Below are positions 20,286 through 63,217 of a stretch of 64,000 nt of DNA, piece by piece (position 1 is the first letter of the stretch; each line of letters begins with the position of its first letter). The translations under genes were made by a program, and so were the position numbers. A model generated the notes under the pieces. The model had not been told where the DNA came from. It worked only from the letters and a program-made list of their open reading frames with translations, and ran no database searches. The stretch comes from Neobacillus dielmonensis (lineage in GTDB: Bacteria; Bacillota; Bacilli; Bacillales; Cytobacillaceae): NCBI RefSeq assembly GCF_000612665.1, contig NZ_HG942066.1, positions 186,001 through 250,000 of the forward strand, read 5' to 3'.

Positions 20286-20388
20286 TTACCTATCCAAAAC
20301 CCGTTTACTTTCCAAATACACTTATTTACTTTCCCAATATAGCTGGTTACTTTCCAAATGAACAAGTTTACTTTCCAAAATCCTTTGG
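20286..20388. repeat. Short-period tandem array A (core TTTACTTTCCAAAT)
   Basis: Five units start at 20286, 20305, 20326, 20347 and 20368, with spacings of 19, 21, 21 and 21. The core TTACTTTCCAAA is well kept and is followed by about 8 unlike bases per unit. The third unit has CCCAAT and the first has TTACCTATCC. It lies between the gnd terminator and the doxX terminator, outside any gene. Read on the minus strand, one frame is open with recurring WKV residues, but no ribosome site supports translation. Confidence 0.75.
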
Positions 20389-20420
20389 AGTAGTAATTTT
20401 GGTCATTGAGGGGCTAACAC

Positions 20421-20456
20421 AAAAAAGACGATTCGGATTTTCGAATCGTCTTTTTG
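20421..20456. terminator. Bidirectional terminator downstream of doxX
   Basis: Perfect 14-bp stem AAAAAGACGATTCG / CGAATCGTCTTTTT with a 6-base loop. Confidence 0.88.
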
Positions 20457-20469
20457 AAGATGGTGCAGT

Positions 20470-20982
20470 TTACAACGTTGCTTTATGCTTATCAACTCCG
20501 GCCTTCTTGTTGAACTTTCTGATGAACGGAATAAACCAGCGATCCAATCCGATTTTGCCGGCGTTGTAGCCCGCCGTTAAGATGATAAAACCTAGGAAGA
20601 TATCTCTAGGGTTATGGGATACTGTCCCTGCAAGGAAGAAGGCGAAGTTCATCACTAAACCGAAGAACATGGCAGCGGTGGTCAGGCAGCCTAGGATTAA
20701 GCCAAGGCCTATTAAGAGTTCTCCCCAAGGAACAATAAAGTTAAACAGGTCAACGTTTGGCAGAGCGAAACCGTCTAGAAATTTTACATACCATCCAAAC
20801 AGGACATCGCCTTCAGGACCTTTTACCGGGTTGGCAATTGCTCCCTTCAGGTAACCGGCAGCGTCGAAGCCGCCTGTAAGTTTATGAAAACCAGCAGTGA
20901 ACCAGGAATACCCCAAATATAAACGCAATACCGTTAGAATGACAGCAGCGATTTTGTTTTCCCGTAAAAACTTATTAAACAT
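20470..20982 (-). CDS. DoxX-family membrane protein
   Basis: Protein of 170 residues with four hydrophobic segments (about 12-31, 80-98, 103-122 and 126-144). RLYLGYSWFTAGFHKLTG and WGELLIGLGLILG are the usual DoxX landmarks. Related proteins are linked to thiosulfate:quinone reduction or to oxidative-stress membrane complexes. The role here is unknown. GGGTGGA lies before the ATG. Divergent from the subtilase gene across 351 bases. Confidence 0.85.
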   Translation of the reverse strand: MFNKFLRENKIAAVILTVLRLYLGYSWFTAGFHKLTGGFDAAGYLKGAIANPVKGPEGDVLFGWYVKFLDGFALPNVDLFNFIVPWGELLIGLGLILGCLTTAAMFFGLVMNFAFFLAGTVSHNPRDIFLGFIILTAGYNAGKIGLDRWFIPFIRKFNKKAGVDKHKATL

Positions 20983-21333
20983 TTTAATTCCACCCTTCTA
21001 CCTTTTTTGTTTCTCTTTACACTTCTAATATATGGAATTTTTCTGTAAAAAACTTGGGAATAGGGATATGTTCATAGTTTATTCGAAATGTTTTGACTTA
21101 ATGGTGAACTATAGTAATAGTGGGGTTTTTTTAGAAACAAACAATGAATTAATGTGTAATTCTCAAGGTCATTAAGTAGGATTTTTTTTAATGGATATAA
21201 CGCCTCTACTTAAGCTACATAAGATTTTCCCAACCATTCCCCAGCACAATACTATTGATTTACCAGAAAAATGGAAATAAACTCATAATTACAACCGATC
21301 GGCTTGATAAATAAAAGGGGTGGAGGAAATTAT
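20983..21333. other. Intergenic region between doxX and the subtilase gene
   Basis: AT-rich divergent region. A TTGACT at about 21093 could be a -35 for the plus strand, but no good -10 lies at the right distance. I see no further repeat, RNA or short gene. Confidence 0.35.
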
Positions 21334-22599
21334 ATGAAAAAATTAAAATGGCTTGGATCTGGAATCCTCGCTGTAACCATGGGTGCATCTTTGTTTGCAG
21401 CAGGCGCTTTTGGTCAGGCGGCAGCTCCTGATGAGTCTTATCGCGTTATCATTAAAGGTCCAGGTTCAGAAATGGCAAAGGCAAAACATAATGTGAGCGC
21501 CCGCTGGGATTTTGGGGCAGAAGGATTTACATCTACGGTTAATTCCGCTCAATACCAAGCCTTATTGAAAAATAAGAATTTAGAGATTACTAGAGTTCCA
21601 GAGGTGCAGCTTGATAGTCTGGAAAACCGATCTGCAGGCAAAGCCGGCACAAAAGCAGCATCCCTTCCTGCAGACCGTACCCCTTGGGGAATTGAAGCCA
21701 TCTATAATGACCCATTGATTACAAGTACGTCTGGCGGGACAGGAATCAAGGTGGCCGTTTTAGATACAGGTGTTTATATTAATCACTATGACTTGGCTGG
21801 AAGTGCTGAGCAATGTAAAGATTTTACACGTATTACCACATCCATGGTCAATGGGTCGTGCACGGATAAAAACGGTCACGGTACCCATGTAGCCGGAACG
21901 GCACTTGCGCATGGCGCTTCAGACGGGCTGGGAGTATATGGCGTAGCACCCCAAGCAAAGCTTTGGGCATATAAGGTGCTAAATGACAGAGGCTCGGGAT
22001 ATTCTGATGATATTGCCGGAGCAATCCGACATGTGGCAGATGAAGCTGCCAGAACTGGCTCAAAGGTTGTTATATCCATGTCACTAGGTTCTAGTGCCAA
22101 AGATAGTATGATTTCGAGCGCAGTGGATTATGCATATGGCAAGGGCGTGCTAATCGTAGCGGCAGCAGGCAATGATGGATATGCAGATAATACAATTGGC
22201 TATCCGGGTGCTTTGGTGAATGCTGTTGCAGTAGCTGCTTTAGAGAATGTTCAGCAAAACGGAACCTATCGTGTAGCCGATTTTTCTTCGCGGGGTAATT
22301 CGGCAAGTGATGGTGATTATGTCATTCAGGAACGTGACGTAGAGATTTCTGCACCAGGACGCGACATCCTATCAACATGGTACGATGGCAATTACAATAC
22401 TATTAGCGGAACTTCCATGGCCACTCCTCACGTTTCCGGTTTAGCAGCCAAAATTTGGTCAGAGAACCCCTCATGGACCAATACACAGCTTCGGGCTGAG
22501 TTACAAAGAAGGGCGAAACTATACGATATTAAAGGTGGGTATGGTGCCACAACTGGTGATGACAATGCATCCGGATTCGGATTTGCAAGGGTAAAATAA
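21334..22599 (+). CDS. Secreted subtilisin-like serine protease (S8)
   Basis: Exported protease of 421 residues: signal peptide about 1-28 (ending AFGQA), an inhibitor-like propeptide to about residue 112, then the catalytic domain. The triad is D144 in VLDTGV, H182 in NGHGTHVAG and S361 in GTSMATPHVSG. The oxyanion Asn is N280 in AAAGN. Two cysteines, C161 and C176, are close enough to form a disulfide, unlike classical subtilisins, which have none. TGGAGG precedes ATG 21334; the upstream in-frame ATG at 21304 lacks such a site. A terminator follows. Confidence 0.93.
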   Translation: MKKLKWLGSGILAVTMGASLFAAGAFGQAAAPDESYRVIIKGPGSEMAKAKHNVSARWDFGAEGFTSTVNSAQYQALLKNKNLEITRVPEVQLDSLENRSAGKAGTKAASLPADRTPWGIEAIYNDPLITSTSGGTGIKVAVLDTGVYINHYDLAGSAEQCKDFTRITTSMVNGSCTDKNGHGTHVAGTALAHGASDGLGVYGVAPQAKLWAYKVLNDRGSGYSDDIAGAIRHVADEAARTGSKVVISMSLGSSAKDSMISSAVDYAYGKGVLIVAAAGNDGYADNTIGYPGALVNAVAVAALENVQQNGTYRVADFSSRGNSASDGDYVIQERDVEISAPGRDILSTWYDGNYNTISGTSMATPHVSGLAAKIWSENPSWTNTQLRAELQRRAKLYDIKGGYGATTGDDNASGFGFARVK

Positions 22600-22602
22600 C
22601 AA

Positions 22603-22640
22603 TAGAAAAAGCCATCAGTCCTCATTGATGGCTTTTTCCA
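22603..22640 (+). terminator. Intrinsic terminator of the subtilase gene
   Basis: AAAAAGCCATCA / TGATGGCTTTTT stem with a short loop. Confidence 0.88.
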
Positions 22641-22728
22641 TTGTTTCAAAAGATATGTGAAGAGACACTGCCTTACATGTTTAGAGAAAAAATAGCAAAT
22701 AATAGGAAACATAGAAAGGGGATAGTGC

Positions 22729-22887
22729 ATGGTTAAAAATGAAAATCAACAGGACCTTCTCGTACAGCCGTTAATGTCTACAGGAACAACGGAAGCGGGC
22801 TTTGATGCACAAGACCATAATAGCCAAACACAAGCCAGTAAACCTAAAATTGGAGAGGTTATCGTCGGAGAGCGTAACGAGGATTAA
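22729..22887 (+). CDS. Short hydrophilic protein, 52 residues, unknown
   Basis: ATG at 22729 with AAAGGGG upstream; stop at 22885. The product is rich in Gln, Asn, Glu and Thr, has no hydrophobic segment and ends GERNED. It is followed 46 bases later by a second short ORF of similar character. Size and composition recall small spore proteins of Bacillaceae, but I cannot match it to a named family. Only the ribosome site and the paired layout support it. Confidence 0.5.
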   Translation: MVKNENQQDLLVQPLMSTGTTEAGFDAQDHNSQTQASKPKIGEVIVGERNED

Positions 22888-22933
22888 AGGCCTTAACCCA
22901 CGAATCAAAAATACTTGCTAAGGAGCTAATATT

Positions 22934-23077
22934 ATGAAAACTAAAGATAATTTTTCAAGAGGAGCTAAAGTGACAAAGGATAATCAAATCATGGGAACAC
23001 CGAATAGCAAAAGCAAGAATGGAACAGGTGATTCACCTAACGATAATATCGGAGGAAAAACGCATCCCAATCGTTAG
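22934..23077 (+). CDS. Short hydrophilic basic protein, 47 residues, unknown
   Basis: ATG at 22934, preceded by AAGGAG at 22919-22924; stop at 23075. The sequence is Lys/Asn/Gly/Ser-rich (it starts MKTKDNFSRGAK and ends GGKTHPNR), without hydrophobic stretches. It could be a small acid-soluble-type or other spore protein, but no family signature is visible. It probably shares a transcript with the 52-residue ORF. Confidence 0.5.
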   Translation: MKTKDNFSRGAKVTKDNQIMGTPNSKSKNGTGDSPNDNIGGKTHPNR

Positions 23078-23099
23078 AACACAGAACACGTCCTTGATT

Positions 23100-23133
23100 C
23101 AAAAAAAAGCTGACTCTTACGCGAGTCAGCTTG
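23100..23133 (-). terminator. Intrinsic terminator of the MATE gene
   Basis: AAGCTGACTC/GAGTCAGCTT stem with an A-run on the left, so it acts on the minus strand. Confidence 0.85.
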
Positions 23134-23168
23134 AGTATAATTTGAAATTTCTGTTGAAAGCTGGTTAT

Positions 23169-24557
23169 TTATGCCGGAACTCGAACTTTACTTAACCGTT
23201 CCCATGGCTTCATGAGCCAGCGTCTTAATGCAAAGCAGCCTCTTAACCACTCGTCAGCTCCTTGCGCCAGCCAAACTCCCAATAGTCCAAGTCCAAGATG
23301 GATACCGAGCAAGTAACTTAAAGATACGGCAATTCCCCACATGGAAATGATTCCAATGACTACGGGGAATCGGACATCCCCGGCTGATTTTAACGACCCC
23401 ATAAACACGATATTAGCCGCCCTTCCCGGCTCAACAAACACGATGGCCCATAGCACTGGGAGCCCAACCGCAATAATCCGTGGATCGCTTGTGAAGGTTT
23501 CCAGCAGCGGGGAACCTATCAAGGCAATAATTAATGCAGTAGTGGTCGAAGCAGCTATAGCAATTTTAAATGTACGAAGCCCGCGGCGTAGAGCACGGTC
23601 ATATTGCTTCGCCCCAATATAACGGGCTACTAGCAGCTGTGTCCCTTGTGCAATGGCAACAGTAATCAAAAAACAAAGCATGTTGATATTTAATACATAT
23701 ACACGGGCAGCAAGGGAAGCGGTACCGAGTGATACGACAAAACTGGTAATGACCAACTGTGACAATTGATAAGATAAATTTTCCCCTGCGGATGGAATTC
23801 CAATCGCCAGCAGTCCTTTAATATCCTCTTTTTTTGCTTTCATAACATCCTTTAATGTTAGGCTTAAGGACAGGCGGTTATAGACAAAATAGAGCAGGGC
23901 GCCTACCGCAAACGCCCGCGCTATCATAATACTCCATGAAACGCCTTGTACGCCTGTAACAGGCAAGCCAAAGATACCGGACAAGGCAATGATGTTGCCT
24001 GTCACACTGATCAGGTCCATGGCCAATGTAACAAACATCGATTCCTTCGTGTACCCATAACTGCGAAGGACAGAGCTTAATGCGAGTGACAAGGATTCGA
24101 AGAATAAAGAAATCCCGCATATTTTTACAAAAGTATGCCCATATTCAAATACTTTTCCTTCAACATCAAATAATGATAATAGATGTCCGCCGAAAACAAA
24201 GATGAAGGCGGCGACAATAATCCCAAACCAAAAATTCAAACCAAATACAGAACGGGATAAATCTCTGGCTTTTTTTAACTGGCCTGCTCCTAGATTTTGG
24301 CTCACCAGTACCGTGGCGCCAATGGAAGTCACGTTAAATACCAAAATAAATAAGTTCAAAAGCTGGTTTGCCACGCCAACACCTGCGGCTGCATCATCCG
24401 AGTAGTGGCCAAGCATGAAAGTGGCAATAATTCCAACCCCCATGTGGAGCGTCAATTCAATAAATAATGGCCAAGAAATACTGAAAAGAGACTGTTCCTG
24501 AAAGGTGCTGTTCGTTTTTTCCAATGGTGTAAGACACCTCTTCTCTATTAAGTTCAT
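23169..24557 (-). CDS. MATE-family efflux transporter
   Basis: Cation-coupled multidrug or metabolite exporter of 462 residues with 12 hydrophobic segments in two homologous halves. The first half has WPLFIELTLHMGVGII and AAGVGVANQLLNLF; the second has IGIPSAGENLSYQLSQL and an AQGTQLLVARYIGA stretch, both typical of MatE domains. A ribosome site AAGGAG lies 14 bases from the ATG at 24557, which is rather far, so the true start could be slightly inside. No neighbouring regulator. Confidence 0.9.
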   Translation of the reverse strand: MNLIEKRCLTPLEKTNSTFQEQSLFSISWPLFIELTLHMGVGIIATFMLGHYSDDAAAGVGVANQLLNLFILVFNVTSIGATVLVSQNLGAGQLKKARDLSRSVFGLNFWFGIIVAAFIFVFGGHLLSLFDVEGKVFEYGHTFVKICGISLFFESLSLALSSVLRSYGYTKESMFVTLAMDLISVTGNIIALSGIFGLPVTGVQGVSWSIMIARAFAVGALLYFVYNRLSLSLTLKDVMKAKKEDIKGLLAIGIPSAGENLSYQLSQLVITSFVVSLGTASLAARVYVLNINMLCFLITVAIAQGTQLLVARYIGAKQYDRALRRGLRTFKIAIAASTTTALIIALIGSPLLETFTSDPRIIAVGLPVLWAIVFVEPGRAANIVFMGSLKSAGDVRFPVVIGIISMWGIAVSLSYLLGIHLGLGLLGVWLAQGADEWLRGCFALRRWLMKPWERLSKVRVPA

Positions 24558-37979: not shown

Positions 37980-39398
37980 TTAGATAACCTCCTGTGCAGT
38001 AAACTCGCGAACATCAACGAAATGGCCGGCAATTGCGGCAGCAGCAGCCATTTCCGGACTGACAAGATGAGTGCGTGCCCCTTTGCCTTGGCGTCCTTCG
38101 AAGTTCCGGTTGGATGTTGAAGCACAGCGTTCGCCAGAAGGGATGATATCATCGTTCATGCCAAGACACATGCTGCATCCGGAGTCGCGCCATTCAAAAC
38201 CAGCTTCTTTAAATACTTGGTCCAATCCTTCTTCTTCCGCAGCTAGCTTTACACTGAAAGACCCTGGAACTACAATCGCTTTAACGGAAGGGTTCACTTG
38301 TTTGCCTTGAATCACTGCTGCAGCTTTACGCAGGTCACTTAAACGTGAATTTGTGCAAGATCCGATGAAAACATGGTCAATTTTCACACTTGAGATCGGC
38401 TGGCCAGCTTCTAGACCCATATACTCGAGTGCCCGTTTGATTTCATCCTGTTCGCTCGCTTTCTCTGCTTGTTCTGGACTTGGTACGTTAGCTGTAACCG
38501 GAATACACATACCTGGGTTAGTGCCCCAAGTGACTTGCGGCTCTACCTCAGCAGCGTCAATTTCCACGACATCATCGTAGGATGCACCCTCGTCAGTTGC
38601 TAATGCCAGCCAGCTTTCTGCAGCTTGTTCAAAAGCTTCTCCTTGAGGCACGTAGCGTCGTCCGCGTAAGTAGTCAATCGTTGTTTGATCAGGAGAGATT
38701 AGACCTGCTCTCGCACCGCCTTCGATAGACATGTTGCAGACGGTCATGCGCTCTTCCATAGACATTTCACGGATGGCTTCGCCGGTATATTCAATGACAT
38801 ACCCTGTTCCGAATTTCACACCGAATTTACCGATGACGGCTAGAATTAAGTCTTTTGCGGTTACGCCTGTCCCAAGCCGGCCATTCACTTTCACATTTAA
38901 GGTTTTTGGAGGTGCTTGCCAGAGTGTCTGTGTTGCCAATACATGCTCGACTTCACTGGTGCCGATACCAAAAGCTAGAGCTCCAAATGCCCCGTGAGTG
39001 GAAGTATGGCTGTCACCGCAGACAATCGTTTTGCCTGGCTGAGTGAGACCTAGTTCAGGTCCGATAACATGGACGATTCCGTTATCAGGATGATGTATGT
39101 CTGCTAATGTAATACCGAATTCGTCACAGTTTTGCGCAAGTGTGTCGATTTGGTTTTTGGAAATAGGGTCATTGATTACTTGGCGTTGGCGGGTAGGCAC
39201 ATTATGATCCATCGTGGCAAATGTTAAGTCCGGACGACGGACTTTACGGCCGTTCATGCGTAAACCCTCAAAAGCCTGGGGGGAAGTAACTTCATGAACA
39301 AGATGGAGGTCAATGTAAAGCAGATCCGGTTTTCCGTTTTCTTGATGGACTACATGCTGTTCCCAAACTTTTTGAACAATATTTTTTGGTGTTTGCAT
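37980..39398 (-). CDS. leuC: 3-isopropylmalate dehydratase large subunit
   Basis: Aconitase-fold subunit of 472 residues carrying the [4Fe-4S] cluster. Ligand cysteines lie in GSCTNSR and in [22 protein letters not shown] is the substrate loop. AGGAAGGAA fits ATG 39398; an in-frame start at 39413 would sit on the ribosome site. Unusually, 279 bases separate it from leuB, and that gap holds a 21-bp repeat array and a stem-loop. Confidence 0.96.
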
Positions 39399-39515
39399 AG
39401 ATTCCTTCCTCACATTTCTAGATTTTCTGGAAAAAAGCCAGTATTGCTAGGTTCTCGAAATAGCAGTTTGGCTGTATTATTAGGCCTTCTTGAATTTAAA
39501 CTGCCGGGAACATGG

Positions 39516-39620
39516 TTTATTTGCTAATTTAGTAGTTTTATTTGCGAATTTCTAGGTTCTATTTGCGAATTTCAACATTTTATTTGCGAATTCCCGGTTT
39601 TTATTTGCGAATCACAGAGT
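39516..39620. repeat. 21-bp tandem array B inside the ilv-leu operon (core TTTATTTGCGAATT)
   Basis: Five units of exactly 21 bp beginning at 39516. Each has the 14-base core TTTATTTGCGAATT (the first has GCTAATT, the third TCTATTT, the last GCGAATCA) and seven unrelated bases. The operon mRNA would carry AATTCGCAAATAAA five times between leuB and leuC. No gene fits here. Confidence 0.85.
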
Positions 39621-39677: not shown

Positions 39678-40784
39678 TTAATAGTAACAGCTCGCAATGC
39701 ATTTAGATGTGTTGAGTGTACGGATATAATCGACAATCAGATTTGTCATTTCGGTTGTGTTGACTTTCCGTCCATCTTTTACCTGTAGGTCGGCAGTATG
39801 GAAACCGGCATCAAGAATCGACTGAACAGCATCCTCAATTAATTTGGCTTCAGTTTCTAGGCCGAATGAATAACGCAGCATCAGAGCAGCTGACAGGATC
39901 ATTGCTGTCGGATTAGCGATTCCCTTGCCTGCAATATCCGGTGCAGAACCATGAACCGGTTCATAGAGCCCCACGCCGCTTTCATTTAAGCTGGCAGAAG
40001 GGAGCATACCAAGTGATCCGGTCAATACGGAGGCCTCATCACTTAAAATGTCGCCAAACATATTCTCTGTCACAATGACGTCGAAATGGGTTGGATTGGT
40101 GATCAACTTCATTGCTGCAGCATCTACTAAGACATGTTCCACTGTAACATCGGGATACTGGGCTTTCTTCTCTTCCACAATTTCGCGCCATAGTTTGCTA
40201 GATTCAAGGACATTTGCTTTATCTACTGAAGCAAGGCGTCCGCTTCTTCCCTGGGCAGCTTGGAAAGCTTTATCTATGATTCGTTCAATTTCTTTACGGG
40301 TATAGGAAAGGGTATCAACCACAGATTGGCCGTTATCCCGCCGTTCACTTGGCGTCCCAAAGTAAAGTCCGCCCGTTAGCTCACGAACAATAAGGAGATC
40401 GCTTCCAGCAACTACTTCTTCTTTTAATGGCGAGGCATGGAGCAGATTTTTAAATCCTTTGATTGGGCGCAAATTGGCATATAAATCAAGGGCTTTTCTG
40501 ATTCCCAGCAGACCCCGTTCAGGTCGTAGATGGGAGGGGTTGTTATCCCATTTTGGGCCGCCAACTGCTCCAAGCAGAACGGCATCTGCCTGTTTACAAG
40601 CGTCGACTGTGGTTTCGGGAAGCGGAGTGCCATAAAGGTCGATGGCCGCTCCTCCGATTTCATGGGTTTCAAAGCTAAAAGTATGATTATATTCTTCCGC
40701 AATGGCTGTTAACACGTCACGAGCCGCATTCATAACTTCCTTGCCAATACCATCACCGGGAAGTAAAACAATTTGTTTTTTCAC
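39678..40784 (-). CDS. leuB: 3-isopropylmalate dehydrogenase
   Basis: NAD-dependent oxidative decarboxylase of 368 residues, third step of leucine synthesis. VLLPGDGIGKEVM at the N terminus, GAVGGPKWD, LRPERGLLGIRK and the metal-binding stretch NMFGDILSDEAS are present, followed by EPVHGSAPDIAGKGIANP. The C-terminal tail ends CIASCYY. The 66-base gap from leuA contains a GC-rich stem-loop. Confidence 0.96.
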   Translation of the reverse strand: MKKQIVLLPGDGIGKEVMNAARDVLTAIAEEYNHTFSFETHEIGGAAIDLYGTPLPETTVDACKQADAVLLGAVGGPKWDNNPSHLRPERGLLGIRKALDLYANLRPIKGFKNLLHASPLKEEVVAGSDLLIVRELTGGLYFGTPSERRDNGQSVVDTLSYTRKEIERIIDKAFQAAQGRSGRLASVDKANVLESSKLWREIVEEKKAQYPDVTVEHVLVDAAAMKLITNPTHFDVIVTENMFGDILSDEASVLTGSLGMLPSASLNESGVGLYEPVHGSAPDIAGKGIANPTAMILSAALMLRYSFGLETEAKLIEDAVQSILDAGFHTADLQVKDGRKVNTTEMTNLIVDYIRTLNTSKCIASCYY

Positions 40785-43962: not shown

Positions 43963-45689
43963 ATTGGTTTCACTCCAATCAATTCATGAAGACCTTTGCC
44001 AGGGGCCATCATTGGAAACACTTTTTCCTGCTGCATGACACGGCAATCGACTAGCAACGGCCCATCATAAGCAATAAGTTCAGGAAGGGAGGCAATTAGG
44101 TCTTCCTGGGTATCAATTCTTTGCCCGCGGATGCCATAACTTTCAGCGAGCTTGACGAAATTTGGCTGGCTGCCAAGAATGGATTCAGAAATCCGATTTC
44201 CATGTAATAGCTCCTGCCATTGGCGAACCATTCCAAGTGCTCCGTTATTGACGATGAAGATTTTTACTGGCAAGTTCTGTTCATAAATGACTGAAAGTTC
44301 TTGTAAAGTCATTTGAAAACCTGCATCACCGACAATCGCGACAACTGTACTTTCAGGTGAGGCAACCTGTGCTCCAATAGCAGCCGGAAAGCCAAATCCC
44401 ATTGTTCCTAAACCACCGGAAGTAATCCAACGATGCGGTCTGTTAAAGGTGTAGTATTGTGCGGCCCACATTTGGTGCTGCCCGACGTCTGTCGCTACAA
44501 TGGCTTCACCTTTAGTTGCTTTATGAATTGCCTCAATGAGCCATTGTGGGCTCATGCCGGAAGGGTCCAGTTTATACCAAAGCGGATATTCCTGTTTGTA
44601 ATTTGTCAGTTTTTCAAGCCATGATCCGTGTTCGGGAGATGCATTGGTTTGTGATAACAGCTCCTTTAATGCTTCCTTTGCATCCGCAACAATTGGGATT
44701 TGCGTTGGAACGTTTTTGCCAATTTCTGCAGGGTCGATATCAATGTGGGCGACTTTAGCATTTGGAGCAAAGTGTTTGAGATTGCCTGTTAAGCGGTCAT
44801 CAAAACGAGCGCCAAAGTTAATGAGCAAATCACATTCATAAAGAGCCATATTGGCAGCATAAGTTCCATGCATCCCGCCCATTCCCAAAGAGAGAGGGCT
44901 GTCAGCCGGAAATGTTCCTAGCCCAAGCAGGGTATTTACCACCGGAAGTTGATGCTTTTCGGCAAAAGCCGTTAATTCGTCTGAAGCATGGGCATGGAGA
45001 ACACCTGCACCTGACAAAATGACAGGTCTGCTTGCTTTTTCCAGTGTGTCTGCCAATTTTCTGATTTGTAAAGGGTTAGGCTTCAGCGTAGGCTGGTACC
45101 CCGGCAAATCAATACATGCATCCTCAGGTACATCACTATCTAAAATGCTTGCTGAGATATCCTTAGGAACATCTACTAGAACAGGACCTGGTCTTCCGGT
45201 AGAAGCAATATGAAAAGCTTCCTTCACAATTCTTGGCAGGTCGGTTATATCTTGAACCTGATAATTGTGTTTTGTAATTGGCGTCGTGATCGCCATAACA
45301 TCTGCCTCTTGGAAAGCATCTGTTCCAATAACGGAACGGGCCACCTGACCAGTGAAAATAACTAGAGGCAGGGAATCCATCATTGCGTCTGTAATTCCAG
45401 TCACCAGGTTGGTTGCTCCCGGACCAGAAGTTGCTATCACGACTCCAGGCTTTCCGGTAATTCGGGCGTAACCTTCTGCAGCATGAATCATACCTTGCTC
45501 ATGACGGAAGAGGATATGATTAATTCTGCCTTTTGCCCGATAAATGCCATCATAAATAGGTAAGACAGCACCTCCAGGATACCCAAAAATGGTATCAACA
45601 CCTTCTTTTATCAAAAGATTGATAAGAAGGTCTGCACCGATTTTTGGCTCTGTACTGGGTTGGAATTCCAGCTTTGCTTCTACTTTCAC
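43959..45689 (-). CDS. ilvB: Acetolactate synthase catalytic subunit
   Basis: Thiamine-diphosphate and FAD enzyme of 576 residues making acetolactate or acetohydroxybutyrate. [28 protein letters not shown] with the catalytic Glu, and the ThDP motif [12 protein letters not shown] ending in VNNGALGM are present. GTG start with AAGGAGG 9 bases upstream. It is preceded by a T-box leader, so its transcription is controlled separately from ilvE-ilvD. Confidence 0.96.
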
Positions 45690-45774
45690 GTCGTATTCCC
45701 TCCTTAGGGTATTTGAAAGTTCTGAAAAATAAAGATAAGGGTAAGCCTATCTAAGAAATCCTTAATGCACACAT

Positions 45775-46092
45775 TAAAAAAGACCTATCCTCTCCAAATA
45801 AACTGCCATTACAAGACAAAAGCAGAATAGTCGGGGAGAAAAGGTCTTTTCTCGGTACCACCCGGATTTACAGCACTCTTACGAATACTGCCTCATGAAG
45901 CGACAAATAATGAACAACGCTTCTTTTTGTAACAGGTGTTCAATCTATAAACACCCGGTTAAGCCTACTAAGTTTACCACTGTTCAGAATAACACTCAGG
46001 GATGATGTCAGAATAGATTGTATTACTGGGCTCACAGCAACCCCAGCTCTCTGAAAATACAATTTCCTATTCCTTTATTCCCGTCATCGATT
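45775..46092 (-). promoter_or_regulatory. T-box leader before ilvB
   Basis: The minus strand has all T-box landmarks. Stem I starts GATGACGGGA, with GAATAG/CTATTC above the specifier loop, an AGAGAG element and a GTTGCTGTGAG apical part. The T-box sequence GGGTGGTACC is at 45854-45863. The terminator pairs AGACC-TCTCC with GGGGAGA-GGTCT and ends in T6 (45775-45847). In the specifier loop the triplet followed by A-TCCC is ATC, the same position as CUC-A-CCC in the B. subtilis ilv-leu leader, so it seems to read tRNA-Ile. Confidence 0.88.
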
Positions 46093-46102
46093 TTGTTTAT
46101 AA

Positions 46103-46196
46103 AGTTTTCAAAGGTTCTGCCTGAGAGAAAGACCTAGGATCTCGGCTTTAAAAGGGAGCCTAAACCCTTGATAGACCCTAGGGATTCCTTTTTCTC
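46103..46196 (-). other. Structured intercistronic element between ilvD and the T-box
   Basis: On the minus strand an outer stem pairs GAGAAAAAG with CTTTCTCTC. Inside, two CCTAGG palindromes (46133-46138 and 46177-46182) can pair, and GGCT/AGCC closes a small hairpin. The 3' side reads CTCTCAGGCAG, resembling the conserved end of glycine aptamers, but the rest does not fit that class. It begins 2 bases after the ilvD stop codon. Confidence 0.45.
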
Positions 46197-46197
46197 A

Positions 46198-47865
46198 TTA
46201 TATTTTCATTACGCCGCCGGTATTGGCAGAAGTAACAAGCTTTGCATATTTTGCAAGATAACCAGATTTAATCTTTGGTTCTGGCTGCACCCATGCTTTG
46301 CGTCTTTCAGCTAATTCTGCTTCATCAACAAGGAGTTCGATGGAGCGAGCCTCAAGGTCGATTAGAATTTTGTCTCCATTTTCAACTAAAGCGATTGGTC
46401 CGCCTTCAGCTGCCTCAGGAGAGATATGGCCAATTGAAATTCCACGGCTGGCTCCGGAAAAACGCCCGTCTGTAATAAGAGCAACCTCTTTTCCAAGACC
46501 GCGGCCGACAATGGCAGAAGTAGGGGCAAGCATTTCTGGCATGCCCGGTCCGCCTTTAGGGCCTTCATAGCGGATAACCACAACGTGACCAGATTTAACT
46601 GTACCATTGTTGATACTTTCTAGTGCATCATCCTGTGACTCAAACACGATGGCTTCACCCAAGAATGTTTTAATGGATGGATCCACAGCACCAACCTTGA
46701 TAACCGCGCCGTCTGGGGCAATATTTCCATATAGAATGGATAGCCCGCCGACTTGGCTATATGGATTGTCTTTTGTACGAATCACATTTGTATTGGTAAT
46801 CTCAGCTTCCTTGACATTCTCTTCAAGTGTTTTTCCTGTAATGGTTAAGCAGTCCTTGTGAAGAGCACCTTCCACTTTGTAAAGTTCATTGATGATGGCA
46901 CTGACACCGCCAGCATTATGGACATCCTGCATAGAATAATCAGATGCAGGCATGATTTTTGCCAAGTAAGGGACTCGTTCAGCTATTTTATTAATATCAC
47001 GTAAATCGTAGTCAATACCGGCTTCATGAGCGATGGCTAATGTATGCAGGACGGTATTGGTAGAGCCGCCCATGGCCATATCGAGAGCGAAAGCATTATC
47101 GATTGCTTCGCGGGTAACAATGTCACGTGGGCGAATATCCTTCTTAACTAGCTCGACTAAATATCTGGCAGCCTTCCGGATTAGCTCATGTCTTTCTTCG
47201 GAAGTAGCTACGATTGTGCCGTTACCTGGAACGGCCATCCCCAAAACTTCCATGAGACAGTTCATGGAGTTTGCTGTAAACATTCCTGAACATGATCCGC
47301 ATGTCGGACAGGCATTATTTTCAATTTCTAATAACTCTTGTTGGCTCATTGCCCCGCTATGATAAGCACCGACTCCCTCAAAAACAGAGGTGAGAGATAA
47401 TGGTTTTCCTGCTGCAGTTCTTCCAGCTTCCATCGGACCGCCCGAAACAAATACAGAAGGGACATTGGTTCTTACGGCAGCCATCAGCATTCCTGGTGTG
47501 ATTTTGTCACAGTTTGGAATGTAAAACACACCGTCAAACCAGTGGGCATTAATAACGGTTTCAGCACTATCCGCAATAATTTCACGGCTTGGCAGGGAAT
47601 AGCGCATACCAATGTGTCCCATTGCGATTCCGTCATCTACGCCAATCGTGTTAAATTCAAATGGTACACCGCCTGCTTCACGGATCGCTTCTTTGACAAT
47701 ATCACCAAAGACATTTAGGTGTTTATGGCCGGGAATGATGTCAATGTAGGAATTACAGACACCGATAAACGGTTTATCTAAATCGCTTGTTTTAACACCG
47801 GCTGCGTATAATAAACTGCGGTGGGGAGCACGGTCAATCCCCTTTTTAATCATATCGCTTCGCAT
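46198..47865 (-). CDS. ilvD: Dihydroxy-acid dehydratase
   Basis: Iron-sulfur dehydratase of 555 residues making the 2-oxo acids of isoleucine and valine. Cluster and metal ligands lie in [23 protein letters not shown] and [29 protein letters not shown] near the C terminus is typical. It lies 11 bases after ilvE. Followed by the structured element and the T-box. Confidence 0.96.
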
Positions 47866-50970: not shown

Positions 50971-52230
50971 TTATGCTTTCAGTTTTTGTTCCACTTTTAC
51001 AAGTTCAGGATATCCGTAGCTGCCATGTTCACTCATGTCTAGACCAATAATCTCCTCCTCTTCGGTGACGCGCAGTCCGTTCATCGCGGCTTTCATAATG
51101 GACAATAGGATAAAGGAGACAATAAAGGCGAATGCTCCGCATACTACAACACCCATCGCTTGCACTCCAAGTTGATGAAGGCCGCCGCCATAGAATAATC
51201 CTGGCTGACCGACTGTGGCTAATTCTTTGGTGGCGAAGAAACCAGTCGATAATGTTCCCCAAACCCCAGCCGTTCCGTGTACGGATAGAGCGGCAATCGG
51301 GTCATCGATTTTCATCTTTTCAAAGAAACGAATGCTGTAAAATACTAGAATTCCAGCAATAAACCCAATTACAACAGATGCCCACGTTTCAACGAATGCA
51401 CAGGAAGCAGTGATGGCTACTAATCCAGCGAGGGCACCATTTAGCATCATCGGTACATCTGCTTTTCCTAATACGATCCAGGAAATAATCATGGCAGCAA
51501 CTGTTCCTGCTGCGGCAGCTAAATTAGTATTTACGGCAACAAACCCGAAAAATCCTGCATCCACTGACAAGGTGCTTCCTGCATTAAAACCAAACCAGCC
51601 AACCCATAGAAGCAGTACGCTTAAAGCGGTAAATACTTGGTTGTGTCCTGCTAAATTATTTGCAGAGCCATCTTTGTTGTATTTTCCGATACGCGGTTTT
51701 AGAATAATCGTTGCTGCTAATGATGCCATGGCCCCTGTTAAGTGAACGACGGTGGATCCTGCAAAGTCCTGCTTGCCATGCTCAGCTAACCAGCCGCCGC
51801 CCCAAATCCAATGTGCAATCGGAGGATAGACAATAACGGAGAATAATACGGCAAAGACGAGATAGGCACTTAATTTGGCTCGTTCGGCGAACCCTCCAAA
51901 GGCTATTGTCAACGAAATTCCCGCAAAGGCTAGTTGGAATAAAAAGAAAACGGCTCCTGACAGCGACATGCCGTCAATGTCATAACCAGAGTAAAAGAAA
52001 TCTGAAAAACCAAGCAGCGAATTCCCTTTACCAAAAATTAACCCAAAACCAACTGCCCAAAATATGACCGATCCTATTGAAAAGGTAAGGATTGTCTTAC
52101 CAGCGATATGACCGGCATTTTTCATTCTGGTCGATCCAGTTTCTAAGAGGATGAAGCCTCCAATCATCAGAATAACAAGCACTGCTCCTAACATAACCCA
52201 CATACTGTTTAATAAAAATGCGGTATCCAT
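50971..52230 (-). CDS. amtB: Ammonium transporter
   Basis: Trimeric ammonium channel of 419 residues with 11 helices. AGAVFFLFQLAFAGISLTIAFG, the HLTGAMASL stretch with the first pore His and LSVHGTAGVWGTLSTG with the second are diagnostic. There is no glnK next to it, unlike nrgAB in B. subtilis. tnrA lies directly upstream on the same strand. GGGGGAG precedes the ATG. Two TnrA-type dyads lie upstream. Confidence 0.95.
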   Translation of the reverse strand: MDTAFLLNSMWVMLGAVLVILMIGGFILLETGSTRMKNAGHIAGKTILTFSIGSVIFWAVGFGLIFGKGNSLLGFSDFFYSGYDIDGMSLSGAVFFLFQLAFAGISLTIAFGGFAERAKLSAYLVFAVLFSVIVYPPIAHWIWGGGWLAEHGKQDFAGSTVVHLTGAMASLAATIILKPRIGKYNKDGSANNLAGHNQVFTALSVLLLWVGWFGFNAGSTLSVDAGFFGFVAVNTNLAAAAGTVAAMIISWIVLGKADVPMMLNGALAGLVAITASCAFVETWASVVIGFIAGILVFYSIRFFEKMKIDDPIAALSVHGTAGVWGTLSTGFFATKELATVGQPGLFYGGGLHQLGVQAMGVVVCGAFAFIVSFILLSIMKAAMNGLRVTEEEEIIGLDMSEHGSYGYPELVKVEQKLKA

Positions 52231-52255
52231 TCTTTCTCCCCCTTTTGCTTGATTA

Positions 52256-52272
52256 TGTCAATATTTATGACA
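52256..52272. promoter_or_regulatory. TnrA/GlnR box, amtB-proximal
   Basis: TGTCAATATTTATGACA has both arms of TGTNA-N7-TNACA. It ends only 26 bases from the amtB start codon, a position expected to repress or to overlap the promoter. Confidence 0.75.
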
Positions 52273-52321
52273 TTTAAGATAGTTGTATTGTGACATGAGC
52301 GGGAGAGAAGTTCTATAAACT

Positions 52322-52338
52322 TGTAAGATTACCTTACA
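52322..52338. promoter_or_regulatory. TnrA box, amtB-distal
   Basis: TGTAAGATTACCTTACA has both arms of TGTNA-N7-TNACA. With a -10 at CACAAT (minus strand, about 52292-52287) its centre lies near -50, the position at which TnrA activates transcription. Confidence 0.75.
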
Positions 52339-52419
52339 TTGTTTTTGCGTGGATAGAAAAGATTCATCATTAAATTAGCTGAGGGATCATGTTTGCTTTG
52401 AAGGTAGGTTGTTCAAATG

Positions 52420-59328: not shown

Positions 59329-59332
59329 CTTA

Positions 59333-59475
59333 GGCTCTGTTAAACTGATTGGAGTGGAAGGCGAGCGACTCCTCGGAAAACCTCATTTATGCTATCGCAT
59401 AATAAGGCTCCCCGGCACGCCGCGGGTTCGCTTAAGCAACTGGAGCGGAAATCAACAGCCAAATTTAACAGGGCC
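59333..59475. mobile_element. MITE-like element, copy 3 (143 bp) with 8-bp target duplication
   Basis: Ends GGCTCTGTTAAA and TTTAACAGGGCC. The element is flanked on both sides by TTGTCTTA, an exact 8-bp direct repeat that marks insertion. Internal GCTATCGCATAAT hairpin and GGAGCGGAAATCAACAGCC module as in copy 1. It is non-coding. IS6- and IS1595-type elements make 8-bp duplications and have related ends, so one of these may have moved it. Confidence 0.75.
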
Positions 59476-59508
59476 TTGTCTTAAAAAAGAAGGCCTGTCT
59501 AAAAAATA

Positions 59509-59548
59509 TTAAGAAAAACTTAAGATTTATAGTAAAGTAAAGTTAAGA
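59509..59548. promoter_or_regulatory. TTAAGA direct repeats upstream of the response regulator gene
   Basis: TTAAGA at 59509 and 59520 have the TTAAGA-N5-TTAAGA spacing typical of OmpR/PhoP-type regulators; a third copy is at 59543. Candidate autoregulatory site. Confidence 0.5.
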
Positions 59549-59599
59549 TTTTGCCATTATTATGTAGGACAAAGAGATAAACGGAAAGCAGGGGGAGAA

Positions 59600-60292
59600 A
59601 TGAATCCATATTATGTGCTGGTAGTGGATGATGAAAAAGAAATCCGCGATGCCATAGAAATATACCTAAAAAATGAAGGGGTTACCGTTTTAAAAGCAAA
59701 GGATGGGATTGAAGCATTAGAAATCTTACATGAGCACCCGGTTCATCTCATTATATTAGATCTCATGATGCCGAGGCTGGATGGGATTTCTGCTACTTAT
59801 AAGATTCGCGAACAGAAAAATATCCCGATTATTATTTTAAGTGCAAAAAGTGAAGACACTGATAAGATTTTAGGGCTGCAAGTAGGTGCTGATGACTATG
59901 TAACGAAGCCGTTTAATCCAATGGAATTAGTAGCCAGGGTAAAATCCCAGTTAAGAAGATATGTTACACTTGGCACTTTTGAAGGTGTCAAAAAGGTCAT
60001 TGACTTAAACGGACTAACATTGGATCAATCGGCAAAAGAAGTCACCGTTCATGGGGAGCGGATTAAACTTACTCCAATCGAATACAAGATCGTCGAGTTA
60101 CTAATGACCAATGCCGGGAGAGTATTCTCGATTGATGAGATCTATGAGCGGGTATGGAAGGAGCCTGGGTACAATGCAGAGAATACGGTAGCAGTCCACA
60201 TTCGGAAAATTCGTGAAAAAATAGAGATCGATCCAAAAAATCCAAGATTCTTGAAGGTGGTATGGGGTATTGGATACAAAATGGAAAAATAG
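59600..60292 (+). CDS. OmpR-family response regulator
   Basis: Protein of 230 residues. Receiver domain 1-120 with acidic pair D10-D11, phosphoacceptor D54 in LIILDLMMP, the conserved T/S in IILSAKS and K in VTKPF. Winged-helix DNA-binding domain about 132-228 with LTPIEYKIVELLM and NTVAVHIRKIREKI. Resembles VanR-type regulators. It overlaps the kinase gene by 23 bases. GGGGGAG precedes the ATG. Confidence 0.93.
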   Translation: MNPYYVLVVDDEKEIRDAIEIYLKNEGVTVLKAKDGIEALEILHEHPVHLIILDLMMPRLDGISATYKIREQKNIPIIILSAKSEDTDKILGLQVGADDYVTKPFNPMELVARVKSQLRRYVTLGTFEGVKKVIDLNGLTLDQSAKEVTVHGERIKLTPIEYKIVELLMTNAGRVFSIDEIYERVWKEPGYNAENTVAVHIRKIREKIEIDPKNPRFLKVVWGIGYKMEK

Positions 60293-62519
60293 ACTCATTT
60301 TGGCTGTATGGGCCTTCTTGGTTTCATTCGGGTTGAGTGGAATCCTGGCCGCTGCACTGTTTGGTAGCCATTACATATATAAGGATTATTTTCATACTCC
60401 TGATTTCCAATATCAAGTTGATCAATTTGCCGGCTATTTAAGCACCTTCGAATTGCATGATCTTCCATTGGAAGAAGCAAAGAAAGCAATTACCGTAACG
60501 AAGGAGGATATTGATGAGCACCGGTATCGGTACGGAACGCTTCCGGAACAAGTCGATAATATCAAAGCCCAGTACGAAGAAAGAATCCAGGGCGCATTAG
60601 ATGCGGACAACCAAGATGCCGTTGATGCCTTTAAAGCCGAAAGAGATGGAAAAATAGAAGATATCACCAACAATTTTAAGAGTGATGACTATGTCAGGCC
60701 AAAGGTTATGAAAGAAAAAGAGAATAAACTAGAAGAATACTATAAAAAACGGGAAGGCTTACGATCTGAGTTTGAAAGAGAAAATGATATTTTTGAATAC
60801 TATTTTAAAAATACCGAGACAAAAAAGGTCTATACGGATCTGCCGAATTCTGGGGGAGAAGCACCTAAAAATGATATGAACAAAAAGGATTCACTTTATT
60901 TCACCACAATGACCATTGGAAGGGATTATGCCATCAATAATAGTTATCCCGGTTATGAGCAGCTCATGGATTCAATCATCCCTACAAAAGCTTCAACCTT
61001 TGAAGGAAAGATTGCCATACCTAAATCTTTGCCAGTATCCAATCCAATTATGGACGAATATGAGAACTATAAGCACAATCAATGGCTGCTATTAATTTGT
61101 GGTATTACAGGTATGATTGCGCTGTTGCTTAGTCTATGGATGTTAAAAAAATCTCAAGCTTTTCCTGCTACAGTAGAGAAGTGGCGCCCGTATTATAATA
61201 AGCTGCCGCTCGATGTAAGGGTTCTGTTTTTTATCCTGACAGGTATCGGATTTACTACAGCCGTTTTTAGTGTTAGCAGCCAGTCTATTTTCGTCATCGG
61301 AAATCCTGTCAATGGAGTAGAAAGTGTTGCCGGCCTCATCATCGCTTCCTTTTGCATGGGCTATACGTATCTACAGTGGAAGTATTTATCCTTTAGCGTG
61401 AAGGATTGGCAGAATGCTAAAGCAGAGTGGAAACGGGGATTAATTTATAAAGCAGGGAAGAAATCCAGCCAGCTGTTTAAAAAAGTACTCCAGAGCTTAA
61501 AGGAGGCATTTCTAAGTCAAACAGCGGGCATTCAGATATTGATTATAATGATTCTGATTTATGGCCTCGGGGCAGCCGCCGTCATGACAATCATTCATCC
61601 GATTTTTATCCTTATGTATTTAATCCTGATCGGTGTTATTGGCATTCCTCTGGCATTGATCGTGGTTAATAAAATTGGTTATTTTAATCGAATTGTTGAC
61701 ACAACAAAGGAAATTGCTTCGGGAAAATTAGGCGATAACCTTGATGTGTCAGGTAAGACTGTACTGGCGACGCTGGCCGGCAATATCAATGTTTTGAAGC
61801 AAGGCTACAAGCATTCGCAAAACGAGCAGGCTAAAAGTGAACGGCTGAAAACAGAATTGATTACCAATGTCAGCCATGACCTGAGGACACCCTTGACATC
61901 GATTATTACCTATACAGAGCTACTGAAAAACAAGGATGTATCCAACGAGGATCGGGCTGCTTATCTAGAAATTATTGACCGGAAATCTAAACGACTAAAG
62001 GTGCTGATTGATGATTTATTCGAGGTATCGAAAATGGCGAGCGGCAATATGGAGTTAAACAAAGAAAAAGTGGATCTTGTGCAGCTTTTGCAGCAGGCAC
62101 TCGGAGAATACGATGATATTATAAATGACTCGAGTTTGCAATTTCGGGTTACAAATACGGAGAAGCCTATATACGCATTAGTAGATGGGCAAAAGATGTG
62201 GCGGGTTTTTGATAATTTAATAGGAAATATTCTTAAATATTCGCTAGAGAACTCACGAGTCTACATTGCCATCAAAAAGGATAGCAGGCAAGCTTTAATT
62301 ACGTTTAAAAATGTTTCTAAATATGAACTTAATGAAAATAGCGAGGAGCTATTTGAACGTTTTAAACGAGGAGATACGTCTCGTCATACAGACGGTTCAG
62401 GATTAGGGCTTGCCATTGCCAAATCGATTGTTGACCTCCACGAAGGGAGGCTGGAAATTGAGACGGACGGTGATTTGTTTAAAGTAAGTATTATGTTAAA
62501 TCTTGCGGAGAATCACTAA
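60270..62519 (+). CDS. Sensor histidine kinase, large membrane type
   Basis: Protein of 749 residues. A first helix (about 10-33) precedes a large extracytoplasmic, Lys/Glu-rich coiled-coil-like domain (34-270). Several helices (about 272-292, 312-370 and 415-465), HAMP and the HisKA box NVSHDLRTPLTS with H536 follow. The ATPase domain has the N-box (NLIGNILKYS) and GSGLGLAIAKS, but no clear DxGxG between them, as in VanS-like kinases. TTG start at 60270, inside the end of the regulator gene, with GAAGGTGG upstream. The signal is unknown. Confidence 0.9.
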   Translation: MDTKWKNRLILAVWAFLVSFGLSGILAAALFGSHYIYKDYFHTPDFQYQVDQFAGYLSTFELHDLPLEEAKKAITVTKEDIDEHRYRYGTLPEQVDNIKAQYEERIQGALDADNQDAVDAFKAERDGKIEDITNNFKSDDYVRPKVMKEKENKLEEYYKKREGLRSEFERENDIFEYYFKNTETKKVYTDLPNSGGEAPKNDMNKKDSLYFTTMTIGRDYAINNSYPGYEQLMDSIIPTKASTFEGKIAIPKSLPVSNPIMDEYENYKHNQWLLLICGITGMIALLLSLWMLKKSQAFPATVEKWRPYYNKLPLDVRVLFFILTGIGFTTAVFSVSSQSIFVIGNPVNGVESVAGLIIASFCMGYTYLQWKYLSFSVKDWQNAKAEWKRGLIYKAGKKSSQLFKKVLQSLKEAFLSQTAGIQILIIMILIYGLGAAAVMTIIHPIFILMYLILIGVIGIPLALIVVNKIGYFNRIVDTTKEIASGKLGDNLDVSGKTVLATLAGNINVLKQGYKHSQNEQAKSERLKTELITNVSHDLRTPLTSIITYTELLKNKDVSNEDRAAYLEIIDRKSKRLKVLIDDLFEVSKMASGNMELNKEKVDLVQLLQQALGEYDDIINDSSLQFRVTNTEKPIYALVDGQKMWRVFDNLIGNILKYSLENSRVYIAIKKDSRQALITFKNVSKYELNENSEELFERFKRGDTSRHTDGSGLGLAIAKSIVDLHEGRLEIETDGDLFKVSIMLNLAENH

Positions 62520-62560
62520 CCTCGTCCATAAAGAAAGAACAAGAAAGGAGAGGAAAGTAA

Positions 62561-63076
62561 ATGTGTGTCATTAATTTTTCTGAATTATACAGTCTTTATT
62601 ATAAACGGCTGTTTCATATAAGCTTCTCAATCACTAGAGATCGGTATCTGGCGGAAGATGTTGTTCAGGAGACTTTTATTAAAGCACTGAAGAAGGCAGA
62701 TACAATTGCAGAACAATCAAAAGTTGGGGCTTGGCTTTCTGTGATTGCCACCAGAACAGCCATTGATTTCGTCCGTGTGGAAAGGAAAAAGAAAGGAATC
62801 CTGATGGAGAAGGATATGTTGGAAAGCTTAGGGAAGGAAATGAAGCACAACGTAGAAGAAGAAGTCGAAACGGGAATAATGGCGGAGCAGGTGAATACTG
62901 CCATAAAAAAGCTAAATCATGAGTATCAGGATGTCCTACTGCTTAAGATTGGCCATGGTTTAAAGGAGCACGAGATTGCACGCGCCCTTGATTTGAATCC
63001 GGGTACCGTCAAAACAAGAATCTATCGGGCAAGGAAACAACTAAAGCAGCTGTTTTTAAAACAACTTAGCGCATAG
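62561..63076 (+). CDS. ECF-type RNA polymerase sigma factor
   Basis: Sigma-70-family protein of 171 residues. Region 2 spans about 10-75 (DRYLAEDVVQETFIKALKK), region 4 about 115-165 (LNHEYQDVLLLKIGHGLKEHEI, then GTVKTRIYRARKQL). AGAGGAAAG precedes the ATG. No anti-sigma gene follows; instead come a 21-bp repeat array and a response regulator. It may be partnered elsewhere or be controlled at transcription by the preceding two-component system. Confidence 0.9.
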   Translation: MCVINFSELYSLYYKRLFHISFSITRDRYLAEDVVQETFIKALKKADTIAEQSKVGAWLSVIATRTAIDFVRVERKKKGILMEKDMLESLGKEMKHNVEEEVETGIMAEQVNTAIKKLNHEYQDVLLLKIGHGLKEHEIARALDLNPGTVKTRIYRARKQLKQLFLKQLSA

Positions 63077-63112
63077 GGAAGAGCATTGTACGGTTGAGTA
63101 TCGCAAATGGTG

Positions 63113-63217
63113 CAATTGTCTGATAGAGTGGCTCAATTGTCGGATAGGATCGTGCAACTGTCGCATACAGTGGTTCAACTGTCGGATAGGGCTGTCTAAC
63201 TGTCAAAATCCGTAACT
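63113..63217. repeat. 21-bp tandem array C (core CAACTGTCGGATAG)
   Basis: Five units of exactly 21 bp starting at 63113, 63134, 63155, 63176 and 63197 (the last one degenerate, TAACTGTCAAAAT). Core CAA-TGTCGGATAG plus seven less conserved bases. A frame from ATG 63107 to TAA 63197 crosses four units and encodes 30 residues of heptads (VQLSDRV-type) without a ribosome site. Located between the sigma-factor gene and its terminator. Confidence 0.8.

Follow-up and report, generated by a model that had tools for sequence, protein, structure and literature searches.

Intergenic 21-bp arrays of Neobacillus dielmonensis: a known constant-size repeat class that may represent phased rows of protein-binding sites

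Arrays and genes at the locus

The window analyzed here, a stretch of 64,000 nucleotides from the genome of Neobacillus dielmonensis, contains three arrays of short direct repeats, A, B and C, all of which are non-coding and lie between ORFs (Table 1). Array A is situated in the gap between the convergent genes for 6-phosphogluconate dehydrogenase and a DoxX-family protein, and array B occupies the gap between leuB and leuC, both on the minus strand. Array C is flanked by the genes for a sigma factor and a response regulator; as this sigma factor features regions 2 and 4 only, it appears to be ECF-like. A terminator-like site is found 3' of the 6-phosphogluconate dehydrogenase gene, on the side of array A.

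Table 1. Positions of arrays A, B and C and of their flanking genes in the window.
Feature	Position	Strand	Description
6-phosphogluconate dehydrogenase gene	18757..20232	+	flank of array A
Array A	20286..20388	+	four clear 21-bp units, core TTTACTTTCCAAAT, plus one degenerate upstream unit
DoxX-family gene	20470..20982	-	other flank of array A
leuC (aconitase family)	37980..39413	-	flank of array B; name inferred from operon
Array B	39516..39620	+	five 21-bp units, core TTTATTTGCGAATT
leuB (isocitrate/isopropylmalate dehydrogenase family)	39678..40784	-	flank of array B; name inferred
Sigma-70 family sigma factor gene	62561..63076	+	flank of array C
Array C	63113..63217	+	five 21-bp units, core CAACTGTCGGATA
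Response regulator gene	63345..64000, continues beyond window end	+	other flank of array C

The first-pass annotation had assigned five units to each array. Direct reading bears this out for arrays B (core starts 39519, 39540, 39561, 39582 and 39603) and C (63115, 63136, 63157, 63178 and 63199), both with a uniform step of 21. In array A, four good cores start at 20307, 20328, 20349 and 20370, each step again being 21, whereas the fifth and most upstream unit (around 20288) is degenerate and offset by 18-19 bases. A periodicity scan over lags of 10-60 and 84 bases of window, in which at least 46 matches counted as a peak, returned peaks at 21 and 42 only, all remaining lags giving at most 44 matches. 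At lag 21, the matches amounted to 48/84 for A, 64/84 for B and 56/84 for C. The three arrays are thereby confirmed as genuine repeats.

A period of 21 is divisible by three, and 12 period-21 calls do fall inside ORFs, on the stretches C54 and C70 of the same genome, which would suit decaying coding repeats of seven-codon units. This origin is extremely improbable, given stop codons in 15 of the 18 frames across the three arrays, the existence of spacings of 19 and 20, and the position of A, B and C between ORFs.

Relation to described repeats

A class of tandem repeats with a fixed length of 20-21 nt, a variable sequence and no known function has been described in Bacillus (Subirana and Messeguer, 2021; PMC8161180), an earlier report being cited there (J. 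Bacteriol. 2020 202:e00229-20). These authors state that the families lack sequence conservation between them, suggest a role at the RNA level for such repeats and report transcription of 52-nt repeats in B. coagulans. Arrays A, B and C belong to this published class of the Bacillaceae, and the initial statement that no such element had been described does not hold. As in that class, which is generally non-coding, units measure 20-21 nt and at least 60% of them agree in length (+/-1); at least four repeats occur within 800 nt, and the genome carries several families differing in sequence. The signal TCGCGG reported for B. weihaiensis (PMC8161180) falls inside the type G core TTTACTCGCGGG (locus L084). 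Compared with the main text of that paper, the partial skeleton, the anatomy of core and spacer, and the differing spacers at loci with the same core are new. In the available portions of PMC6749651 and PMC8625621, nothing on 20-21 nt repeats was found. A literature search likewise yielded no later explanation of these Bacillus repeats.

Other known systems were compared and rejected. Plasmid iterons are direct repeats about 20 bp apart that are bound by protein in phase; the scanned immediate flanks of A-C hold no replication gene, and the arrays are scattered over the chromosome. CRISPR arrays combine a conserved repeat with a variable spacer, but the spacers of 7-8 bp found here are far too short. 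The STAR elements of Staphylococcus (PMC3532100) are similar in that they are intergenic and repeat a 14-bp core in direct orientation, with species-different loci, locus-specific spacers and no known function. They differ in their single GC-rich consensus, T(G/A/T)TGTTG(G/T)GGCCC(C/A), in spacers of at least 40 bp and in the missing 21-bp phase; since A-C show neither this core nor such spacers, identity with STAR elements was discarded.

Occurrence of period-21 arrays

The first reading had asked whether there are more than three arrays. In 712 kb of the same genome, 14 non-coding arrays with a median spacing of 20-21 were detected, eight of them of a single clustered type, E, compared to 0 in 1.42 Mb of simulated sequence. 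The proposed 21-bp rule is supported as well: in a wider sample of 49 intergenic arrays, detected with no period assumed, spacings of 19, 20, 21 and 22 occurred 8, 21, 132 and 2 times out of 226. The respective counts were 3, 14, 90 and 2 in a reduced set without the 15- and 26-unit arrays and without the C70 arrays of the same genome except type A. An excess of 21-bp-periodic intergenic arrays, whose absence the first-pass annotation had named as refuting, was found in 393 kb of the genome, both over simulated sequence and over all other periods from 15 to 35, whereas a further 319 kb showed none (2 calls at period 21, compared to as many as 5 at another). The density is uneven: stretches C54 and C70 gave 21 intergenic calls at period 21, of which 15 are E-type clusters, recognized by eye. 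Arrays of type E also recur at a larger scale, in blocks of roughly 215-240 bp whose spacers are conserved in part.

Before the family test, two of 44 arrays (L065 and L075) were excluded by eye as being of low complexity. The unmerged skeleton, gap-orientation and core/spacer tests include a 20-bp array from N. massiliamazoniensis, which is absent from the test of merged types.

Core types across loci and species

The same genome holds the families A, B, C, D and E and one further (L031). Core B recurs at five of its loci with spacers and flanks that are unrelated by eye, core A at two and core D at two or more, which contradicts the earlier idea that each array had grown from a private seed. 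One genome carries several core types, and a type can recur at unlinked loci with different spacers. Core C was found in other species, once at a different locus. Between orthologous B arrays of this genome and N. muris the core is kept and most spacers differ, and in the leuB-leuC gap the core type itself differs between species. Adjoining the orthologous sigma factor gene, N. muris features a 26-unit type C array in which spacers recur in similar order; another array (L085) consists of near-identical full units.

Of the 30 top-ranking sigma-factor loci, which extend to an identity of about 50%, only those of this genome and of N. muris feature intergenic arrays; of the 30 top-ranking gnd loci, only that of this genome does. 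Sampling of relatives revealed two intergenic arrays with median spacings of 41 and 42 in 100 kb of Sporosarcina, one 21-bp array in 60 kb of Oceanobacillus, and none in the samples of Halobacillus (100 kb), Peribacillus saganii (100 kb) and Metabacillus (39 kb). At leu loci, arrays occur in Halobacillus (one) and Sporosarcina (three related loci). In a further Neobacillus genome (G011), the period scan gave none and the chain detector one (L214).

Dispersal of the arrays as miniature mobile units by a transposase or recombinase, followed by decay, would explain why unlinked loci have a core in common, and would also account for the presence/absence variation observed at the orthologous ilvD-ilvB and leuB-leuC gaps and for the recurrent E-type blocks. 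It is nevertheless quite unlikely: the B arrays have neither spacers nor flanks in common by eye, the ilvD-ilvB site shows no clear target duplication in an alignment that is poor there, and searches of plasmids (A, B, C) and phages (B) gave short partial matches or none. Type E may be an exception.

Conserved cores and free spacers

A unit consists of a core of about 12 bp and a spacer, with a median identity of 0.87 for cores, biased upward as the detector selects conserved 11-mers, and of 0.37, near chance, for spacers. A model of uniform drift was rejected at p<0.05 in every array of at least five units (25 of 25). The arrays usually comprise four to six direct, non-palindromic cores of about 12-14 bp, 21 bp apart, with free spacers.

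This anatomy bears on the reading as neutral minisatellites, in which a 21-bp unit multiplies by slippage and then drifts, the constant size stemming from the slippage machinery and not from function. Some arrays do grow by duplication, as the 26-unit array of N. muris and L085 indicate. Still, cores and spacers should then diverge equally, from which 25 of 25 arrays depart; the five B arrays of the genome share their core but not their spacers by eye, and the spacing is mostly exactly 21. Neutral minisatellites are accordingly considered unlikely.

A partial skeleton shared by the core types

The pattern A-Y-T-K-K-C-S-R-A-W, originally proposed as common to the three arrays, finds an exact match in 9 of the 14 good cores (A 3/4, B 4/5, C 2/5). 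Paired exact copies of it were counted at distances of 12-40. The 712 kb of the same genome contain six pairs at distance 21, two of them outside arrays A, B and C, and 0 at any other distance; 2.46 Mb of relatives contain 27 at 21 (20 of these contributed by one 26-unit array), 5 at 19, 11 at 40 (=19+21) and 2 elsewhere. The distance-21 pairs sit in eight arrays, every one by eye of type A, B or C. In its exact form the pattern is consequently limited to these types, whereas the idea of a degenerate pattern common to the core types partly holds: alignment of 12 merged types yielded a partial skeleton of about TTTAYYnGCnA. Its score of 7.76 bits was reached by none of 200 column-permuted sets (5.73 +/- 0.17); against mirrored controls, of which 6 of 200 reached it, the skeleton is marginal. 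Leaving one out, 8 of the 12 types were predicted by the others at p<=0.01, the failures being types A and C, the Sporosarcina type and one type of N. massiliamazoniensis. Families (types C and D) were merged by eye for this test; without merging, the result is inflated because related families are counted separately.

Phased rows of putative protein-binding sites

The common partial motif together with the freely varying spacers suggests that the arrays are rows of about five predicted sites bound as double-stranded DNA, two helix turns apart, a reading to which a probability of roughly one half is assigned. Each core would be a site for a sequence-specific protein, or for a related protein family with drifting specificity, and the putative binders would sit side by side along one helix face.

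Divergent gaps hold 2 of the 37 arrays with two flanking ORFs, compared to 165 of 672 background gaps taken from stretches other than the leu loci, and gaps between same-direction genes, some perhaps within operons, hold 26 of the 37; these counts are not independent, as 8 of 42 arrays belong to clustered type E. The frequent same-direction setting, together with the transcription of the 52-nt repeats of B. coagulans (PMC8161180), would also fit a function at the RNA level, with transcribed repeats binding an RNA-binding protein or acting as small RNAs. Such a function is very unlikely, as the motif occurs in both orientations relative to transcription in tandem gaps (18 sense, 8 antisense), arrays A-C lack a stable fold (six folds, z from -1.41 to +0.80), and a spacing of two helix turns has no obvious significance in RNA. 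Searching the window for RNA families at gathering threshold gave none at the arrays and a PreQ1 riboswitch elsewhere as sole match.

If the arrays are indeed rows of protein-binding sites, their placement 3' of genes and in same-direction and convergent gaps would spare promoters. The most likely role would be that of a local nucleoprotein patch, serving chromosome structure or acting as a roadblock or insulation, and less so the control of a single pathway, since the three arrays have unrelated flanking genes. A doubtful, though conceivable, extension is that one degenerate grammar of about TTTAYYnGCnA exists, with strict spacing by two helix turns and with the core types as dialects read by a single fast-evolving family of putative DNA-binding proteins, which would cover about five phased sites per row. 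Several protein-site pairs would then exist per genome, the same intergenic site would switch type between species, and this grammar would underlie the 'sequence-variable' 20-21 nt repeats across the Bacillaceae. A repeat class to which no function had been attributed, and which had been described as not conserved in sequence, becomes accessible to protein-binding tests with defined baits through the core/spacer anatomy, the unlinked loci of the same core and the partial skeleton. If the binder exists, it would represent a widespread and so far unnoticed DNA-binding system in bacilli.

The 52-nt Bacillus repeats (PMC8161180) resemble the 21-bp arrays in constant size and variable sequence and differ in their length and, by eye, in their inverted halves. 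Arrays of period 26/52 are also present in the same Neobacillus genome.

Membership in a Described Repeat Class

The 21-bp arrays of Neobacillus dielmonensis belong to the 20-21 nt repeat class published for Bacillus, where the counts were 781 arrays with repeats of 20-21 nt and 1886 with repeats of 51-53 nt (Subirana and Messeguer, 2021, PMC8161180). Repeats of Bacillus were described there as constant in size, variable in sequence, represented by several families per species and in general non-coding; the function of both size classes was not known to the authors, who proposed a nucleoid protein or small RNA (PMC8161180). The first-pass annotation, which knew no described element of this behavior, thus overlooked an existing class. 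The B. weihaiensis signal TCGCGG of the same study falls inside the type G core, and STAR elements of staphylococci (PMC3532100) are a looser analogue.

The genome comprises 4.56 Mb; among named LeuB matches, the Neobacillus muris protein ranks first at 95% identity, and Neobacillus also accounts for most of the top named relatives. In a lag scan (10-60) of the whole window, no lag other than 21 and its multiple, 42, gave a peak. Array A lies behind a terminator-like site, itself 3' of the 6-phosphogluconate dehydrogenase gene. The genes adjoining arrays A, B, and C show no relation to one another, and no fold stood out in RNA folding of the three arrays.

Location of arrays and neighboring features (window = C54:186001-250000; C54 and C70, contigs of N. 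dielmonensis; L-numbers, examined sequence stretches)
Feature	Location	Strand	Description
Array A	window 20286-20388		Four units at 21 bp, degenerate unit 18-19 bp upstream (direct reading)
Array B	window 39516-39620		Five units, spacing exactly 21 bp; leuB-leuC gap
Array C	window 63113-63217		Five units, spacing 21 bp; gap between sigma factor and response regulator genes
PreQ1 riboswitch aptamer	window 18537-18581	-	
DoxX-family gene	window 20470-20982	-	Three similar DNA stretches: C54:118636, 121928, 127945
N. muris array C	L127/L186:3-556		26 units, spaced by 21 or 19 bp throughout; contig starts at the array; recurring spacers follow a similar order
D-type and B-type arrays	L269:270-365, 1476-1642		On either side of one 339-aa ORF
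N. massiliamazoniensis array	L226:15611-15902		Eleven units, mostly 20 bp (GTGCCGTTTTTCGG); appearance unlike other types
E-type clusters	C70:35765-36336, 45635-46930, 51679-52403, 95968-96753		
Period 26/52 arrays, N. dielmonensis	C70:1-404, C70:16127-16351, L031:1-245, L041:1911-2345		
Period 26/52 arrays, relatives	L053, L058, L070, L072, L086		

Excess Over Chance and Spacing

Scanning 393 kb of the genome (C54 and most of C70) for three to five units yielded 21 intergenic calls at period 21 versus 0-3 at any other period between 15 and 35, with 15 of the 21 being clustered E-type arrays on C70 (typed by eye). A further 319 kb gave two calls at period 21, one of them at a stretch end and resembling alanine-rich coding sequence, and 0-5 elsewhere. 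Since this portion lacks the excess of the first, array density is uneven in the genome. In the combined 712 kb, 14 non-coding arrays (eight of them E-type) have a median spacing of 20-21 bp, whereas an order-2 Markov simulation of 1.42 Mb produced three arrays at any spacing and none at 20-21. Accordingly, the 21-bp excess over shuffled sequence, on whose absence the first-pass annotation would have abandoned its proposal, is present.

A period-free detector (chains of at least four 11-mers, at most two mismatches) assigned 8, 21, 132, and 2 of 226 spacings in 49 intergenic arrays to 19, 20, 21, and 22 bp, the next modes being 39 (n = 29) and 42 (n = 11). Leaving out the 26- and 15-unit arrays and all N. 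dielmonensis arrays on C70 except type A, these counts were 3, 14, 90, and 2.

Unit Anatomy and Core Types

Across the arrays of five units and more (n = 25), median pairwise identity was 0.87 in the best 12 columns, a value raised by the detector's own selection, versus 0.37 in seven spacer columns; a uniform-drift model was exceeded in all 25 (p < 0.05 each). Likewise, cores of array B align between N. dielmonensis and N. muris, whereas spacers mostly differ. The 44 arrays detected in 3.17 Mb contained four (n = 19, four being the detector's floor), five (n = 13) or six units (n = 7), the others having 7, 11, 11, 15, and 26. Duplication enlarges some arrays (N. muris array C on L127; metagenome contig L085).

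By eye, arrays were sorted into types A (TTTACTTTCCAAAT), B (TTTATTTGCGAATT), C (CAACTGTCGGATA), D (TATCTACAAATTT), E (TTTACCGGCAAA), F (TTTATCAGCGAAA), and G (TTTACTCGCGGG), a Sporosarcina type (ATAGAGCG), a TTTGTTCATAT type and others. Cores are not private to one locus: core A occurs at two loci of the genome, and core B at five, with about five units each and spacers and flanks unrelated by eye. Core C has no second match in the genome; it forms the 26-unit array adjoining the N. muris ortholog of the sigma factor gene and also occupies the leuB-leuC gap of N. novalis. The same gap carries core B in N. muris and N. fumarioli, an F-like core in N. rhizophilus and core G in N. massiliamazoniensis; on the metagenome contig L085, an F core lies downstream of leuB, the contig stopping inside the next ORF. 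At many of 50 leu loci inspected, the gap has, by eye, only a hairpin and a ribosome-binding region, and at some it has other repeats. The ilvD-ilvB gap holds a D array in N. muris and none in N. dielmonensis.

Shared Skeleton

Setting aside two of the 44 arrays left 42, grouped by clustering into 18 families, which were aligned circularly on both strands and compared with 60 sets each of permuted columns and of a random half mirrored. The families scored 7.83 bits, inflated by related families being counted apart, versus 5.22 ± 0.15 (maximum 5.60) and 6.66 ± 0.23 (maximum 7.33), respectively. After merging by eye to 12 types, the score was 7.76 bits versus 5.73 ± 0.17 for permuted columns (0/200 reaching 7.76) and 7.02 ± 0.28 for the mirrored control, in which 6/200 equaled or beat it. 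Leave-one-out predicted eight of 12 types at p ≤ 0.01 (500 permutations each); the four not predicted were A, C, the Sporosarcina type and one from N. massiliamazoniensis. Judged by these control scores and predictions, a common skeleton of about TTTAYYnGCnA across core types is likely but not proven. The skeleton proposed in the first-pass annotation recovers types A, B, and C.

Genomic Context and Probable Mechanism

The 37 arrays with both flanking ORFs (one was missing in five of 42) lie in 26 tandem, nine convergent, and two divergent gaps, versus 416, 91, and 165 of 672 background gaps of 150-800 bp, a rough comparison based on mechanical ORFs (at least 100 aa), a background without leu loci and a set in which eight of 42 arrays are clustered E-type. 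The low number in divergent gaps suggests that arrays avoid promoter regions. Of the 26 arrays in tandem gaps, 18 carry the motif in sense orientation and eight in antisense.

Because the two-turn spacing is fixed, cores are direct and non-palindromic, spacers are free, orientation is mixed and cores are common to unlinked loci, proteins probably bind the array cores next to one another, along a single face of the helix.

Further Repeats

Blocks of the E-type clusters are spaced by about 215-240 bp (450 bp in the first cluster, C70:35765-36336). In each block, one unit of the CGGTTGATAA type deviates and is conserved; spacers, unlike those of types A-D, are conserved in part. The E-type could be an element that is mobile or has been amplified. 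The period 26/52 arrays, which in N. dielmonensis have inverted halves of the GGTCACGTAG...CTACGTGACC type, probably represent the published 52-nt class. As several lie at contig ends or adjoin a run of N, they may break assemblies.
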